Positions 15,254-37,063 of a stretch of DNA of 64,000 bases are shown in pieces. The notes beneath the pieces are model-generated. The model did not search any database and was not told the DNA's origin. It was given only the letters and a program-made list of their open reading frames with translations. The stretch's first letter is position 1. Each line of letters opens with the position of its first letter. The translations under genes and the position numbers were made by a program. Source of the DNA: Sphingorhabdus profundilacus (GTDB lineage Bacteria; Pseudomonadota; Alphaproteobacteria; Sphingomonadales; Sphingomonadaceae); contig NZ_SDWJ01000001.1 in the NCBI RefSeq assembly GCF_009769755.1, positions 1,116,001-1,180,000 on the forward strand, given 5' to 3'.

Positions 15254-15279
15254 GTAACCGTTGGCTTTTGCGTGTCGAA
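15254..15279 (+). promoter_or_regulatory. SigF-type ECF promoter of the bufferin operon
   Basis: GTAACC (15254-15259), 16-bp spacer, CGAA (15276-15279). This is the bipartite motif I recall for SigF-dependent promoters of Caulobacter. The -10 element ends 73 nt before the bufA start codon, and the cognate sigma factor is encoded in the same operon. Confidence 0.85.
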
Positions 15280-15352
15280 TGATTGGCGGGACCAGATGAA
15301 AGATGGTCCATTCCCCTCTGGCTCAATGCCCAAACAGAATTGGAGAATCACG

Positions 15353-15643
15353 ATGAACACTATGATTTTGAAGCTGGCCGGTGCCGCGGCAGCTCTTTCA
15401 GCTGCAGCAACCATGGCAGCTGCCCCCGCACAAGCAGCAGGCGACAAAGAAAAATGCTATGGCATTTCACTAAAAGCAAAAAATGATTGCGCCGCAGGGC
15501 CAGGCACAAGCTGTGCCGGCACGTCGACTGTTGATTATCAAGGCAATGCTTGGAAGTATGTCGCGACGGGCTCTTGCGAAAAAATGGGCGGATCGCTTGC
15601 CGCCAAAAAAGGAAATGCCAAACCAGTGCCGATGAAGGGCTAA
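15353..15643 (+). CDS. bufA: Bufferin precursor peptide (DUF2282)
   Basis: Precursor of a copper-binding ribosomally made peptide, 96 aa. The start at 15353 gives a signal peptide ([19 protein letters not shown], cut near AQA-A29), so the product goes to the periplasm. The mature part holds four cysteines (C35, C46, C54, C75) in the DUF2282 pattern [36 protein letters not shown]. In characterised bufferins the central cysteines are converted to thiooxazole rings by BufB-BufC, and the modified peptide buffers copper. All partner genes follow on the same strand and a SigF-type promoter lies upstream. Confidence 0.92.
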
Positions 15644-15731
15644 GCAAATTTGTCGCCATTTTGGACGCATTTGAAATTCCATCGAACGCGTTCCGGGTGA
15701 CGACCCCAATTTGAGAGCATATAGTTTGCGG

Positions 15732-16604
15732 ATGGACATCAAGCCTACCCCTTCCCTCCTTCCTCCTTCGGTCGGGATAGGTTTGAAGCCGCAACATTAT
15801 GAAGCGTTGCTCGACCCTTCATGCCCATCGGGTCGCTCCTGCTGGGTCGAAGTCCATCCGCAGAATTATTTCGGCGATGGCGGTCCGCCACACCGTTGGC
15901 TGACTGCCATCGCCGAACGCTATCCGCTCAGCTTCCATTCGGTCGGGTTATCACTTGGTTCTGCCGACGGATTGAATGGCTATGATCTTGAACGGCTGGC
16001 GGTACTCTGCGATTTATACCAACCTGCATCGGTTTCTGATCATCTAAGTTTCTCAGGCAATGCCCACAATCGTTTTGCCGACCTGCTTCCTGTGCCTTAT
16101 ACAAAACCGTCGTTGGACCATTTTGCTCGCGAAATCGGCAAAGTTCAGGATCGTCTAAAACGATCAATATTGATAGAAAACCCATCCCGCTATCTGGCCT
16201 ATCGCGGTGACGAAATGGAAGAGGTCGAGTTCATCTCACGGCTGATTGGCGTCACCGGATGCGGGCTCCTATTTGACATCAACAATGTAGAGGTATCAGC
16301 AACCAATCTGGGTTTTCCGCCTCTGTCCTATCTTGACGCTATCGATCCCGCTTTGGTCGGCGAAATCCATTTGGCAGGTCATGCAGTCGAAAATCACGAT
16401 AGCGGACCATTGTTGATCGACGATCATGGCAGCAAAGTGACGCAAACAACCTGGAGCATGTATCGCACATTTATCGAGCGCGCAGGTCCTATAGCGACAT
16501 TGATCGAATGGGATACCGACGTACCTGATTACGAGGTTTTGTTAGCAGAGGCAGCATTGGCGCAGGCAATCATGGACGAGGCATGTTATGCTTTCGCTGT
16601 CTGA
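15732..16604 (+). CDS. bufB: MNIO-family iron oxidase BufB (DUF692)
   Basis: Multinuclear non-heme iron-dependent oxidase of 290 aa (DUF692), which installs heterocycles on cysteines of the BufA core. A TIM-barrel set of metal ligands is visible: H69 in FHS, H104 in SDHLSF, E149 in LIENPS, D182 in FDINN, H213 and H217 in EIHLAGH, and E259 in LIEWD. The start at 15732 gives MDIKPTPSLLPPSVGIGLKP, which matches the family start; a TTG 21 bp upstream is less likely. It overlaps bufC by 17 bp, as expected for an enzyme-partner pair. Confidence 0.92.
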   Translation: MDIKPTPSLLPPSVGIGLKPQHYEALLDPSCPSGRSCWVEVHPQNYFGDGGPPHRWLTAIAERYPLSFHSVGLSLGSADGLNGYDLERLAVLCDLYQPASVSDHLSFSGNAHNRFADLLPVPYTKPSLDHFAREIGKVQDRLKRSILIENPSRYLAYRGDEMEEVEFISRLIGVTGCGLLFDINNVEVSATNLGFPPLSYLDAIDPALVGEIHLAGHAVENHDSGPLLIDDHGSKVTQTTWSMYRTFIERAGPIATLIEWDTDVPDYEVLLAEAALAQAIMDEACYAFAV

Positions 16605-17304
16605 AGCGCAGACGAACTTTATCGAAACGATCAACGATGGCCCCGATCGGCTGGATCCGCGATTATTCAGCGGTCCGGTGGAACGGATCATGTTGGGGCT
16701 AAAGGCGCATGCCAATACGATAAATCATGCCCGGATCGTGGCGCTCGAAGACACCTTTCCGCTGACGCGCCAATACATCGGTGAAATAGAATTTAACAGA
16801 TTAGCCCGTGAATTTGTCGAAACCGAAACAGCCCGCGCCTGTAACAACAACCAAATTGGACTGCGTTTTCCCGAATATCTGGCTGATGCAGCCACTATGG
16901 AACTGGCGCAAGTCGAGTGGGCATGGCTCGAAAGTTACAATGCAGCAGAAGCGACGGCATTGACGCTCGCCGAACTTGCCGGACTGGATCAGGCAAGTCT
17001 GCTTTCGCTTCTCATTGCACCGCATCCTTCGGCCAGACTGATACCAGTTTCATCGCCTTTGGCAATTGCCGTTGAAAATCTTTCCGATCTGCAACCATCC
17101 GCCATTTTGGCTGTGCGCCCTTCTATCGAAGTTCGCCTCGTTCCGCTGGACCGACTGCAAATGACGTTGTGCGCTGTATCGGCGGAGAAAAATGCTACTT
17201 TGGGTAACCTTTTGGCGATTGCCATCGAACAGGCTTGTGAACAGGCACCTTTGGAGCCAATTTTTCACCTCATTAGCGCAGGTGCGCTGATAAAAGCCGG
17301 ATGA
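16588..17304 (+). CDS. bufC: BufC, DUF2063 partner of the MNIO enzyme
   Basis: Protein of 238 aa with the N-terminal DUF2063 domain (EAQTNFIETINDG, RIVALEDTFPLTRQYIGE, LAREFVETETARA), which binds precursor peptide and helps the DUF692 oxidase. The N-terminal 90 residues are helical, the remainder is a mixed domain that is variable in the family. It overlaps bufB and lies 3 bp before the DoxX gene. The last 100 bp contain a second exact SigF-type promoter motif. Confidence 0.88.
   Translation: MLSLSEAQTNFIETINDGPDRLDPRLFSGPVERIMLGLKAHANTINHARIVALEDTFPLTRQYIGEIEFNRLAREFVETETARACNNNQIGLRFPEYLADAATMELAQVEWAWLESYNAAEATALTLAELAGLDQASLLSLLIAPHPSARLIPVSSPLAIAVENLSDLQPSAILAVRPSIEVRLVPLDRLQMTLCAVSAEKNATLGNLLAIAIEQACEQAPLEPIFHLISAGALIKAG
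17204..17229 (+). promoter_or_regulatory. Second SigF-type promoter motif, inside bufC
   Basis: GTAACC (17204-17209), 16-bp spacer, CGAA (17226-17229), in sense orientation 78 nt before the bufD start. It would allow separate, autoregulated expression of bufD-sigF-nrsF. It lies in coding sequence, so function is less certain than for the copy before bufA. Confidence 0.55.
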
Positions 17305-17307
17305 TGT

Positions 17308-17760
17308 ATGAACGCCCTTTCAGTCTCCTATCACCGCATTGTTGCGATGCTTTCGTCTATGTTTGCGGAATCGGCCATGTTGCTATTCGTCCGTTTTTCC
17401 CTCGCCGGAATTTTCTGGCGCTCGGGACGCACGAAAGTTGAAGATGGCAGCTGGCTGTCGGTAAGCGATACTGCAAAATTTCTGTTTAAAGAGGAATATA
17501 GCAATGTTCCTTTGCCGCCTGAGCTTGCTTCCTATCTCGCGACTTATGCCGAACATCTCTTTCCTGCCTTACTGGTTATAGGTTTGCTAACGCGGGTTTC
17601 CGCGCTGGCGCTATTAGGTATGACGATGGTAATCCAGATATTCGTCTATCCCGAAGCATGGTGGTCGGTACATATGATATGGGTGGCTTTGGCTTTGGTG
17701 CTCATTGTGCGCGGCGGAGGAAAATTCTCCGCTGATGCAATTCTGACGCGTTCAAAATGA
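17308..17760 (+). CDS. bufD: DoxX-family membrane protein of the bufferin operon (BufD)
   Basis: Integral membrane protein of 150 aa with the DoxX pattern: LLFVRFSLAGIFWRSGRTKV in the first helix region, a second block HLFPALLVIGLLTRVSALALLGM, and a final helix MIWVALALVLIVRGGG. About four membrane helices. DoxX proteins are regular members of buf clusters, with an unclear role in redox or copper handling. The stop overlaps the sigma-factor start (ATGA). Confidence 0.87.
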   Translation: MNALSVSYHRIVAMLSSMFAESAMLLFVRFSLAGIFWRSGRTKVEDGSWLSVSDTAKFLFKEEYSNVPLPPELASYLATYAEHLFPALLVIGLLTRVSALALLGMTMVIQIFVYPEAWWSVHMIWVALALVLIVRGGGKFSADAILTRSK

Positions 17761-18281
17761 TCGCGCGCGAAGAAACCATGCGCGACCTGATGCGCCTTGC
17801 ACAAGCAGGCGACAAGCAGGCTTACGCCGTATTGCTGGAGCAAACCGGTCGATGGCTTGCACGGTTCTTTTCACAAAAAATTGCTGCTGATGCGGTTGAT
17901 GACCTTGTCCAGGAAACCTTGATTTCGCTGCATCGCAAACGCGCCAGCTATGATCCGTCGCGGCCGTTCTTGCCTTGGCTCGCGGCCATTGCGCGCTATA
18001 GGTGGGTGGACCGCTTAAGGCAAACCTATCGCCACGCCGCCGATGAATTGCAAGATCAGCACAGCGAAGACAGCCATGAAGATGTCGTCGGCGCCAAAAT
18101 CAGCATCGATAATCTGCTGCATAAATTACCGCCAGCACAAGCGCTCGCGATCCGGCTTGTAAAAATAGATGGCCTCAGCATTGCCGAGGCTTGCATCAAA
18201 TGTGGCCAGTCCGAACCGCTGGTTAAGGTAAACATACATCGTGGTCTCAAAAAACTTGCCACGCTTATCGAGAGTGAATGA
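17757..18281 (+). CDS. sigF: ECF sigma factor, SigF type
   Basis: Extracytoplasmic-function sigma factor of 174 aa. Region 2 is visible as DAVDDLVQETLISLHRKRAS and PFLPWLAAIARYRWVDRLR, and region 4 as HKLPPAQALAIRLVKIDGLS with IKCGQSEPLVKVNIHRGLKK, a helix-turn-helix. In Caulobacter the SigF-NrsF pair senses chromium, cadmium and copper stress and switches on DUF2282-DUF692 operons. Here sigma and target genes lie in one operon, which fits autoregulation. The start overlaps the bufD stop; an internal ATG at 17778 is possible. Confidence 0.92.
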   Translation: MIAREETMRDLMRLAQAGDKQAYAVLLEQTGRWLARFFSQKIAADAVDDLVQETLISLHRKRASYDPSRPFLPWLAAIARYRWVDRLRQTYRHAADELQDQHSEDSHEDVVGAKISIDNLLHKLPPAQALAIRLVKIDGLSIAEACIKCGQSEPLVKVNIHRGLKKLATLIESE

Positions 18282-18282
18282 C

Positions 18283-18918
18283 ATGAATAAGAATTTCGAC
18301 ATTGCCGCGCTGGTTGATGACCTTGAACCGGTCAATCCCATGCAGCAAAAGATACCCTTGGTGTTTTTGGCAGCCATAACCTTTATGGCAACAGCCCTTG
18401 TGATATGGGCCCAGGGCATGCGTGCGGATGTATTGGCAGGACATCCTGACGAAATGTTTTTGATCCGTGCGGGTGTCTTGCTTCTGCTTGGAAGTGCGAC
18501 CGGCTATGCTGTAACATCAATGGCCAGCCCGGCGGTTGGCCGCAGCCAAAATGGCTGGCAAGTGGCACTTGCCGCTGCCGCAGTTTTCCCTCTTGCTGCG
18601 ATTGTAGTGGCATCCACGGGTGATGTAGGTCCGGCAATATCAGCGATGGAATCCGGTATGCGGTGCATGTCCTATAGCTTAATCGCTGCGACGGCGACGG
18701 CGGTTCCAATGGTGGTCTGGCTTCGTAAAGGCGCGCCTTCGTCACCGGGACGCGCCGGCTGGCTTACCGGCATTGCATCGGGGGGCTTGGGCGCTTTTGC
18801 CTATAATCTGCACTGCCCGTTCAACAATGTTGTCTATATCGGACTTTGGTACAGCCTCTCGATCCTGATCTGTGCGATCATTGGCCGGTTGGTGGTACCA
18901 CGTCTCATTCGCTGGTGA
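18283..18918 (+). CDS. nrsF: Anti-sigma factor NrsF (DUF1109)
   Basis: Six-helix integral membrane anti-sigma factor of 211 aa. The start at 18283 gives MNKNFDIAALVDDLEPVNPM, the cytosolic N-terminal segment that would hold SigF. Two conserved cysteines are present: C128 (in GMRCMSYSL) and C178 (in NLHCPFNN). They are 50 residues apart, the same distance as C131 and C181 that I recall for metal sensing in Caulobacter NrsF. It starts one base after the sigma gene and closes the operon. Confidence 0.93.
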   Translation: MNKNFDIAALVDDLEPVNPMQQKIPLVFLAAITFMATALVIWAQGMRADVLAGHPDEMFLIRAGVLLLLGSATGYAVTSMASPAVGRSQNGWQVALAAAAVFPLAAIVVASTGDVGPAISAMESGMRCMSYSLIAATATAVPMVVWLRKGAPSSPGRAGWLTGIASGGLGAFAYNLHCPFNNVVYIGLWYSLSILICAIIGRLVVPRLIRW

Positions 18919-33348: not shown

Positions 33349-33374
33349 GTAACCTTCGACATGCGATTGTCGAA
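33349..33374 (+). promoter_or_regulatory. SigF-type promoter motif upstream of acnA
   Basis: GTAACC (33349-33354), 16-bp spacer, CGAA (33371-33374), in sense orientation and 62 nt before the acnA start. The spacer and -10 together form a palindrome, CTTCGACA-TGCGAT-TGTCGAAG. Identical in motif and spacing to the site before bufA. Confidence 0.6.
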
Positions 33375-37037: not shown

Positions 37038-37063
37038 TTCGGTCGACCTGTCGTTAAGGTTAC
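37038..37063 (-). promoter_or_regulatory. SigF-type promoter motif upstream of the CoA-ester lyase
   Basis: On the minus strand GTAACC (37063-37058), 16-bp spacer, CGAA (37041-37038), 64 nt before the lyase start. The -35 element overlaps the stop codon of the MaoC gene. Confidence 0.58.

Follow-up and report, generated by a model that had tools for sequence, protein, structure and literature searches.

A bufferin operon of Sphingorhabdus profundilacus with a probable positive feedback loop through its own ECF16-type sigma factor

Which promoters switch on a bufferin operon that ends in the genes for a sigma factor and its anti-sigma factor, and does that sigma factor act back on its own genes? 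Bufferins are a recently described and very common family of copper-binding peptides, and the switching of their genes is known for few species. We addressed the question in a 64-kb stretch of Sphingorhabdus profundilacus DNA (contig NZ_SDWJ01000001.1, positions 1,116,001 to 1,180,000; hereafter the window, in whose numbering coordinates are given unless a locus is named), where all six genes bufA-bufB-bufC-doxX-sigF-nrsF were observed in this order on the plus strand between 15254 and 18918. We consider it quite probable that this Buf1 bufferin operon is under positive feedback by its own extracytoplasmic function (ECF) sigma factor of the ECF16 type, which would act at a promoter before bufA (P1), at a second promoter inside bufC (P2) and on a regulon in trans. 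The conserved pair of sites predicts transcription starts, would account for the presence of sigF-nrsF within a bufferin operon in some genomes and outside it in others, and gives a list of candidate co-regulated repair genes in sphingomonads.

The SigF-binding sequence of Caulobacter is GTAACC-N16-CGAA, as given in a figure legend (PMC3511200), and the ECF16 consensus is reported as (T/C)GTAAC-N17-CGAA (PMC8315932). Position 15254, where the initial annotation had begun the cluster, is the first base of a perfect match to the SigF sequence (P1, 15254..15279, plus strand), 73 nucleotides (nt) before the bufA ATG. The second match, P2 (17204..17229, plus strand), lies in frame within the bufC codons for GNLLAIAIE, 78 nt before doxX. 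P1 fits the ECF16 consensus fully, and P2 fits except for a G at the first position. The window contained four perfect GTAACC-N16-CGAA matches versus 0.08 expected from shuffles, and the looser GTAAC-N17-CGAA recovered the same four versus 0.28 expected. The other two sites lie at 33349, before an aconitase gene, and at 37038, where a minus-strand match precedes a CoA-ester lyase-like gene.

Conservation of both promoter sequences was observed directly in relatives. In 20 six-gene loci, each scanned from 400 nt upstream of the bufA frame through nrsF (81,421 nt in total), GTAACC-N16-CGAA marked P1 in 16 and P2 in 19, with no other match on either strand. The looser GTAAC-N17-CGAA marked P1 in 19/19 loci that retain bufA and P2 in 20/20, with no other plus-strand match, where simple arithmetic gives a chance expectation of about 0.3 matches in the 81,421 nt. 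The bufA start codon, ahead of the cysteine motif, was downstream of P1 in all five loci checked (L081, L084, L085, L187 and L188).

In 19 of the 20 loci, P2 is in frame with bufC and falls on a stretch where the protein is conserved (GNLLxxxxE), and the genes from bufB to nrsF overlap or nearly touch. Both facts would also fit an unlikely alternative, that P1 alone drives a single six-gene transcript and the P2 match is a by-product of the BufC peptide motif. A codon test, in which the frequencies of motif-fitting codons were multiplied for the amino acids present and with the codon usage of the respective locus, predicted only 0.2 matches among the 19 loci with P2 in bufC, versus 18 observed (kinship among the loci being ignored). 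The P2 motif codons ranked 2, 7, 8 and 9 of 172 bufC columns in excess synonymous identity, which is high and not alone at the top. The first P2 codon was GGT, CGT or AGT, so that the residue before the Asn is G, R or S while the GT is constant. In one locus (L077), P2 is intergenic, between bufC and doxX, and still matches the motif, which argues against a peptide by-product. Where sigF-nrsF stands alone between groES and hisF, a site was retained before sigF (perfect in G031 and G018, GTAACT in G021). Conversely, in five loci with doxX directly after bufA (L183-L186 and L293, the latter from Sphingobium RAC03), no site was found between bufA and doxX, and paired sites facing both ways lie between the divergent bufB side and bufA. 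These patterns are best read as a genuine sigma-dependent promoter at P2 serving doxX-sigF-nrsF, and a feedback promoter of its own is probable for the sigma pair.

The gene families agree with this assignment. Profile searches confirmed the six families that the initial annotation had named (DUF2282, DUF692, DUF2063, DoxX, an ECF sigma factor and a DUF1109 anti-sigma factor), in the order and on the strand it gave. bufA (15353..15643, plus strand) encodes a Buf1 bufferin precursor of 96 amino acids (aa), with 84.5 bits against DUF2282 PF10048 (cut-off 22.4) and a score below the BufA2 (Buf2) profile cut-off (29.8 vs 60). Its hydrophobic N-terminus, ending in AQAAG, is signal-peptide-like by eye, and four conserved cysteines (Cys 35, 46, 54 and 75) were observed in the alignment. 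bufB (15732..16604, plus strand) encodes an MNIO (DUF692) bufferin maturase that passed NCBIfam MNIO_BufB NF050167 (332.8 vs a cut-off of 310) and matched PDB 3bww and MbnB chains. The DUF2063 partner protein encoded by bufC (16588..17304, plus strand), whose 3' end contains P2, passed PF09836 (47.8 vs 27.2) and was below the NCBIfam HvfC cut-off (25.8 vs 142); likewise, the DoxX-family membrane protein (doxX, 17308..17760, plus strand) passed PF07681 (65.3 vs 23.6) and was below the NCBIfam HvfX cut-off (53.6 vs 80). The sigF-like gene (17757..18281, plus strand) encodes a 174-aa ECF sigma factor with sigma-70 regions 2 and 4 (Pfam, NCBIfam), which we label ECF16-type because of its NrsF partner and the promoter sequence. 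nrsF (18283..18918, plus strand) encodes a 211-aa DUF1109/NrsF anti-sigma factor that passed PF06532 (138.8 vs 26.8) and was below the narrower NCBIfam NrsF equivalog cut-off (76.6 vs 300). Two conserved cysteine positions were observed in its alignment, Cys128 being invariant in 18/18 aligned sequences and Cys178 present in at least 90%. These results support a bufferin cluster of the Buf1 class that carries its cognate sigma/NrsF pair, of ECF16 type, together with a promoter to match; that it is specific for copper and forms thiooxazoles is suggested by analogy with its relatives.

Coupling of all genes by overlaps or tiny gaps, as initially annotated, held for the five genes from bufB to nrsF: bufB/bufC and doxX/sigF overlap, and gaps of 3 nt and 1 nt separate bufC/doxX and sigF/nrsF. 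It did not extend to bufA, because 88 nt separate bufA from bufB. RNA structure upstream of bufA was unremarkable (z -0.04), and scans for sigma-70-like promoters and terminators gave no more matches than in shuffles. The cluster is flanked by groES-groEL on the left and by three genes on the right whose sequences we read as hisF-hisA-hisH; the gro genes were named by Pfam in a relative with the same slot, and both flanks were compared across loci.

We examined the gene order in 61 genomes, 37 from the same genus (S. profundilacus included) and 24 from the same order. NrsF was present in 19 of them, 18 within the genus, and the six-gene order was found in 13 of these 18 (the contig of one of them, G012, starts within bufB). 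When public genomes were searched with the NrsF alignment, at least 25 loci were returned, of which 13 were duplicates of sampled genomes. Among the 12 other loci listed, seven had the six-gene order, some of them labelled Sphingopyxis (L181, L187 and L188), and four had bufA-doxX-sigF-nrsF with a divergent bufB; the best-identity NrsF relatives among the matches listed were labelled Sphingopyxis, Sphingorhabdus or Sphingomonadales. The order is thus kept in relatives, and absence of the sigma/anti-sigma genes from this place was not seen in same-genus loci with readable bufferin genes in the groES/hisF slot. Two further same-genus loci (L102 and L108) decide nothing on the position of the sigma gene, because their contigs, with bufA behind a groES-sized gene, end short of it. 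Otherwise the slot comparison covered the NrsF-bearing genomes. In G018, G021 and G031, the slot keeps only sigF-nrsF; bufA-doxX and a neighbouring Buf2-type operon (bufB, bufC) lie elsewhere, both with a SigF-type site, and the G021 precursor in L098 passes the BufA2 profile. In G014, a relative of NrsF adjoins a Buf2 operon, and a short contig of G032 holds a distant sigF-nrsF pair. In G030 (L083, 3601-4553), bufB is split into two open reading frames (ORFs) and the end of the NrsF match lies apart and contains internal stops; decay of this copy, or an assembly error, may be the reason.

We also looked for SigF-type sites at unlinked genes. In the S. profundilacus genome, a YHS-domain gene has a perfect upstream site, as does its ortholog in G021; the six YHS loci that passed a peptide filter (20 were fetched, and the other 14 were left out) comprised two with perfect sites, one with a one-mismatch site and three with none, whose YHS gene belongs to the type of the second bufferin operon described below. 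A GTAACT site precedes a DUF1223 gene, and likewise a cytochrome-b/MsrP-like (Oxidored_molyb) gene pair, whose MsrP-like protein is below the NCBIfam MsrP cut-off (99.4 vs 207). One of the two MsrA genes (L291) has a GTAACG site at a longer distance. Of 60 further stretches that surround perfect sites, almost all of them from relatives, 59 were analysed, since two overlapped. Genes that recurred behind the sites were MsrA (4 genomes), MsrB, DUF1223 and glutathione S-transferase (3 each), a TPR-like protein assigned by eye and a small secreted protein (3 each), and YaaA, DUF2147 and YHS (2 each); most of the remaining sites had no repeated neighbour, and many were inside long ORFs. The Msr sites agree with the reported ECF16-Msr link (PMC8315932, PMC8224329). 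From these site positions, the sigma factor probably commands distant genes of the YHS, DUF1223 and MsrP/MsrA-like kinds.

The two other perfect sites in the window point only to possible targets. The site at 33349..33374 (plus strand) precedes the aconitase gene acnA (ATG 33437), and aconitase promoters carried the motif in 4 of 27 cases, all perfect (this genome and three relatives): 4/17 NrsF-bearing and 0/10 NrsF-less. This sample comprised 26 loci plus L135 and left out L140 (match at a contig start) and L144 (a second, partial match in G032); no aconitase match was found in G016 and G023. We regard this target as possible, since the DNA around the site is also conserved and an inverted repeat lies within it. 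The site at 37038..37063 (minus strand) precedes a possible target of the HpcH/HpaI family by Pfam, the CoA-ester lyase-like gene (ATG 36973). Among nine sources scanned, the start peptide was found in seven (not in L196 and L197), and the site was perfect in two (G031 among the relatives), had one mismatch in two (G021 and G018) and was absent in three. Both sites lie about 20 kb from the bufferin operon.

Single unconserved sites are mostly chance, as the motif is not enriched genome-wide; counting perfect matches across genomes was tried as a target finder and rejected, because it did not separate targets from chance. Perfect matches per Mb were 2.8 in genomes with NrsF vs 1.6 in those without (12 of 18 vs 12 of 19 genomes counted; Mann-Whitney p 0.011), and we relied on conserved positions only, since this comparison leaves relatedness and base composition uncontrolled.

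That lack of enrichment (173 one-mismatch matches in S. profundilacus vs 345 for the backward pattern) is one of several points that weigh against the feedback scheme. The P2 codons sit in a conserved protein stretch, so their conservation is partly protein-driven, and the codon test ignored that the six-gene loci are kin. The other MsrA locus (L290) is without a site, and upstream of the second bufferin operon of this genome there are two-mismatch matches only, so that we do not claim it as a target. As reported for the better-studied systems, autoregulation of Caulobacter sigF is not strong during metal stress (PMC3511200), no evidence was found for RpoQ initiating gig transcription in Cupriavidus metallidurans (PMC10304878), and Sinorhizobium meliloti rpoE7 and target fusions were unresponsive to H2O2, Cd and chromate (PMC6180224).

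It is a real possibility, if a somewhat doubtful one, that the main job of the sigma/NrsF pair is the response to hypochlorite, methionine or general envelope oxidation, with the bufferin as one output and copper not the direct signal. Such a role is favoured by the sites that recur in relatives upstream of MsrA, MsrB, YaaA and DUF1223 genes and by those before the MsrP-like, DUF1223 and MsrA genes in S. profundilacus, as well as by the response of the Brucella ECF16 pair to hypochlorous acid (PMC8315932) and that of Caulobacter SigF to Cr and Cd (PMC3511200). However, the sites at the bufferin genes are the most constant of all those observed, and the Caulobacter SigF regulon, including sigF and nrsF, rises with copper and is needed for copper tolerance, the sigF mutant being copper-sensitive (PMC8224329). 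The signal aside, the operon could bind a metal other than copper, or BufA could be unmodified here. The response of gig/bufferin operons to gold and silver (PMC8224329) leaves some room for this, but BufB scores above the curated bufferin maturase cut-off and the four-cysteine BufA is conserved, and we regard it as very unlikely.

Under the feedback model that we prefer, the membrane anti-sigma factor NrsF would hold the sigma factor in the unstressed cell, as in Caulobacter. Periplasmic copper, or stress that oxidises thiols or methionine, may alter NrsF through its two conserved cysteines and free the sigma factor. Free sigma factor would then fire P1, a conserved site, giving the BufA precursor and the maturase BufBC, and also P2 inside bufC, increasing the expression of doxX, sigF and nrsF separately from the long message. 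The Brucella ECF16 pair, for its part, is reported to be autoregulated (PMC8315932). In trans it would act on a small envelope-repair regulon of the YHS, DUF1223 and cytochrome b/MsrP-like pair genes, at which sites are present, probably also on MsrA, and possibly on aconitase and the CoA-ester lyase. By analogy with studied bufferins, BufA would, once mature and exported, bind copper by means of thiooxazoles at the two central cysteines, serving as a periplasmic buffer. Tentatively, at a little under even chances, we propose further that a feedback promoter is embedded in the coding sequence of a maturation gene for a ribosomally synthesized and post-translationally modified peptide, is kept across at least two sphingomonad genera and shapes the end of BufC. 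The switch doxX-sigF-nrsF could thereby be turned on separately from the peptide message and be mobile as one unit, and it would couple copper buffering by a peptide with the repair of methionine in proteins and with tricarboxylic acid cycle enzymes such as the iron-sulfur enzyme aconitase.

The scheme resembles that of Caulobacter crescentus, in which SigF-NrsF is reported to drive the copper-induced bufferin operons CC3254-3257 and CC2907-2905 (PMC3511200, PMC8224329), in line with what the initial annotation had stated. The likeness extends to the gene families, the promoter sequence, the NrsF cysteines, which matter in Caulobacter (PMC3511200), and an MsrP-type gene in the regulon. Unlike in Caulobacter, where sigF-nrsF has its own promoter outside the bufferin operon, here the pair forms the last two genes of the bufferin row, with the promoter inside bufC. 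The gigPABT and rpoQ-rsqA genes of C. metallidurans are of the same kinds, and that operon is induced by copper and gold; it differs in its divergent arrangement and in a transcript shown to end at gigT (PMC10304878). S. meliloti RpoE7-EcfR7 likewise has DUF692 and DUF2063 targets (SMb20530-20527), with TGTAAC...GCGAAT before both units; there the two units have separate promoters, and no inducer was found in the conditions tried (PMC6180224). For ECF16 anti-sigma factors, six transmembrane helices are reported (PMC8315932), and the thiooxazole chemistry of bufferins has been described (PMC12452194, PMC13097082). The parts and their link are known already; what is new is the 3'-terminal placement of sigF-nrsF with the promoter inside bufC. 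We found no description of this arrangement in the open literature searched, most subscription papers being outside that search. Buf1 clusters with sigma and NrsF genes are already catalogued in the MNIO survey (PMC12452194), whose main text does not contain the word promoter; its gene-order Fig. 3d was outside this check.

The initial annotation had also called the cluster a self-contained module, with sigma factor, sensor and peptide in one transcript. The single transcript finds no support, given the second conserved SigF-type promoter within bufC. The self-contained module is contradicted by the SigF-type sites before unlinked genes, by the relatives with sigF-nrsF alone in the slot and site-bearing bufferin genes of both Buf1 and Buf2 type at other places, and by the presence in the same genome of a second bufferin operon (contig C2; L025, 3600-6570), which comprises YHS, DUF2282 bufA, MNIO bufB, DUF2063 bufC and DoxX genes without sigma or NrsF genes.

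Other bufferin neighbourhoods were also seen. The MNIO survey states that Buf1 clusters can include sigma and NrsF genes, whereas Buf2 clusters do not (PMC12452194); beside this statement stand two loci, L091 (4983-7718, G014) and L095 (3012-5769, G036), in which an NrsF gene is followed by a SigF-type site and then by a Buf2 (BufA2)-bufB-bufC operon. No sigma-like ORF was detected directly beside either, and in L095 one lies about 2 kb off. The clusters in L183-L186 and L293 (1500-5627) are hybrids, with Buf1 bufA-doxX-sigF-nrsF divergent from bufB and the paired SigF-type sites in the gap. Since the divergent unit of L293 starts, by eye, with a Buf2-like precursor, one maturase may serve both precursors. 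Plasmid loci L294-L296 were inspected for gene order and excluded from the comparison. SigF-type sites also precede small, secreted-looking, cysteine-containing proteins in L252 (G018; no Pfam match) and L282 (G028). Finally, L105, L115 and L116 encode Buf1-like precursors with lipoprotein-like N-termini (Cys-Gly after a hydrophobic stretch, by eye) and have no MNIO gene in the stretches fetched; a SigF-type site lies before the L115 precursor gene and upstream of two tandem precursors in L116.

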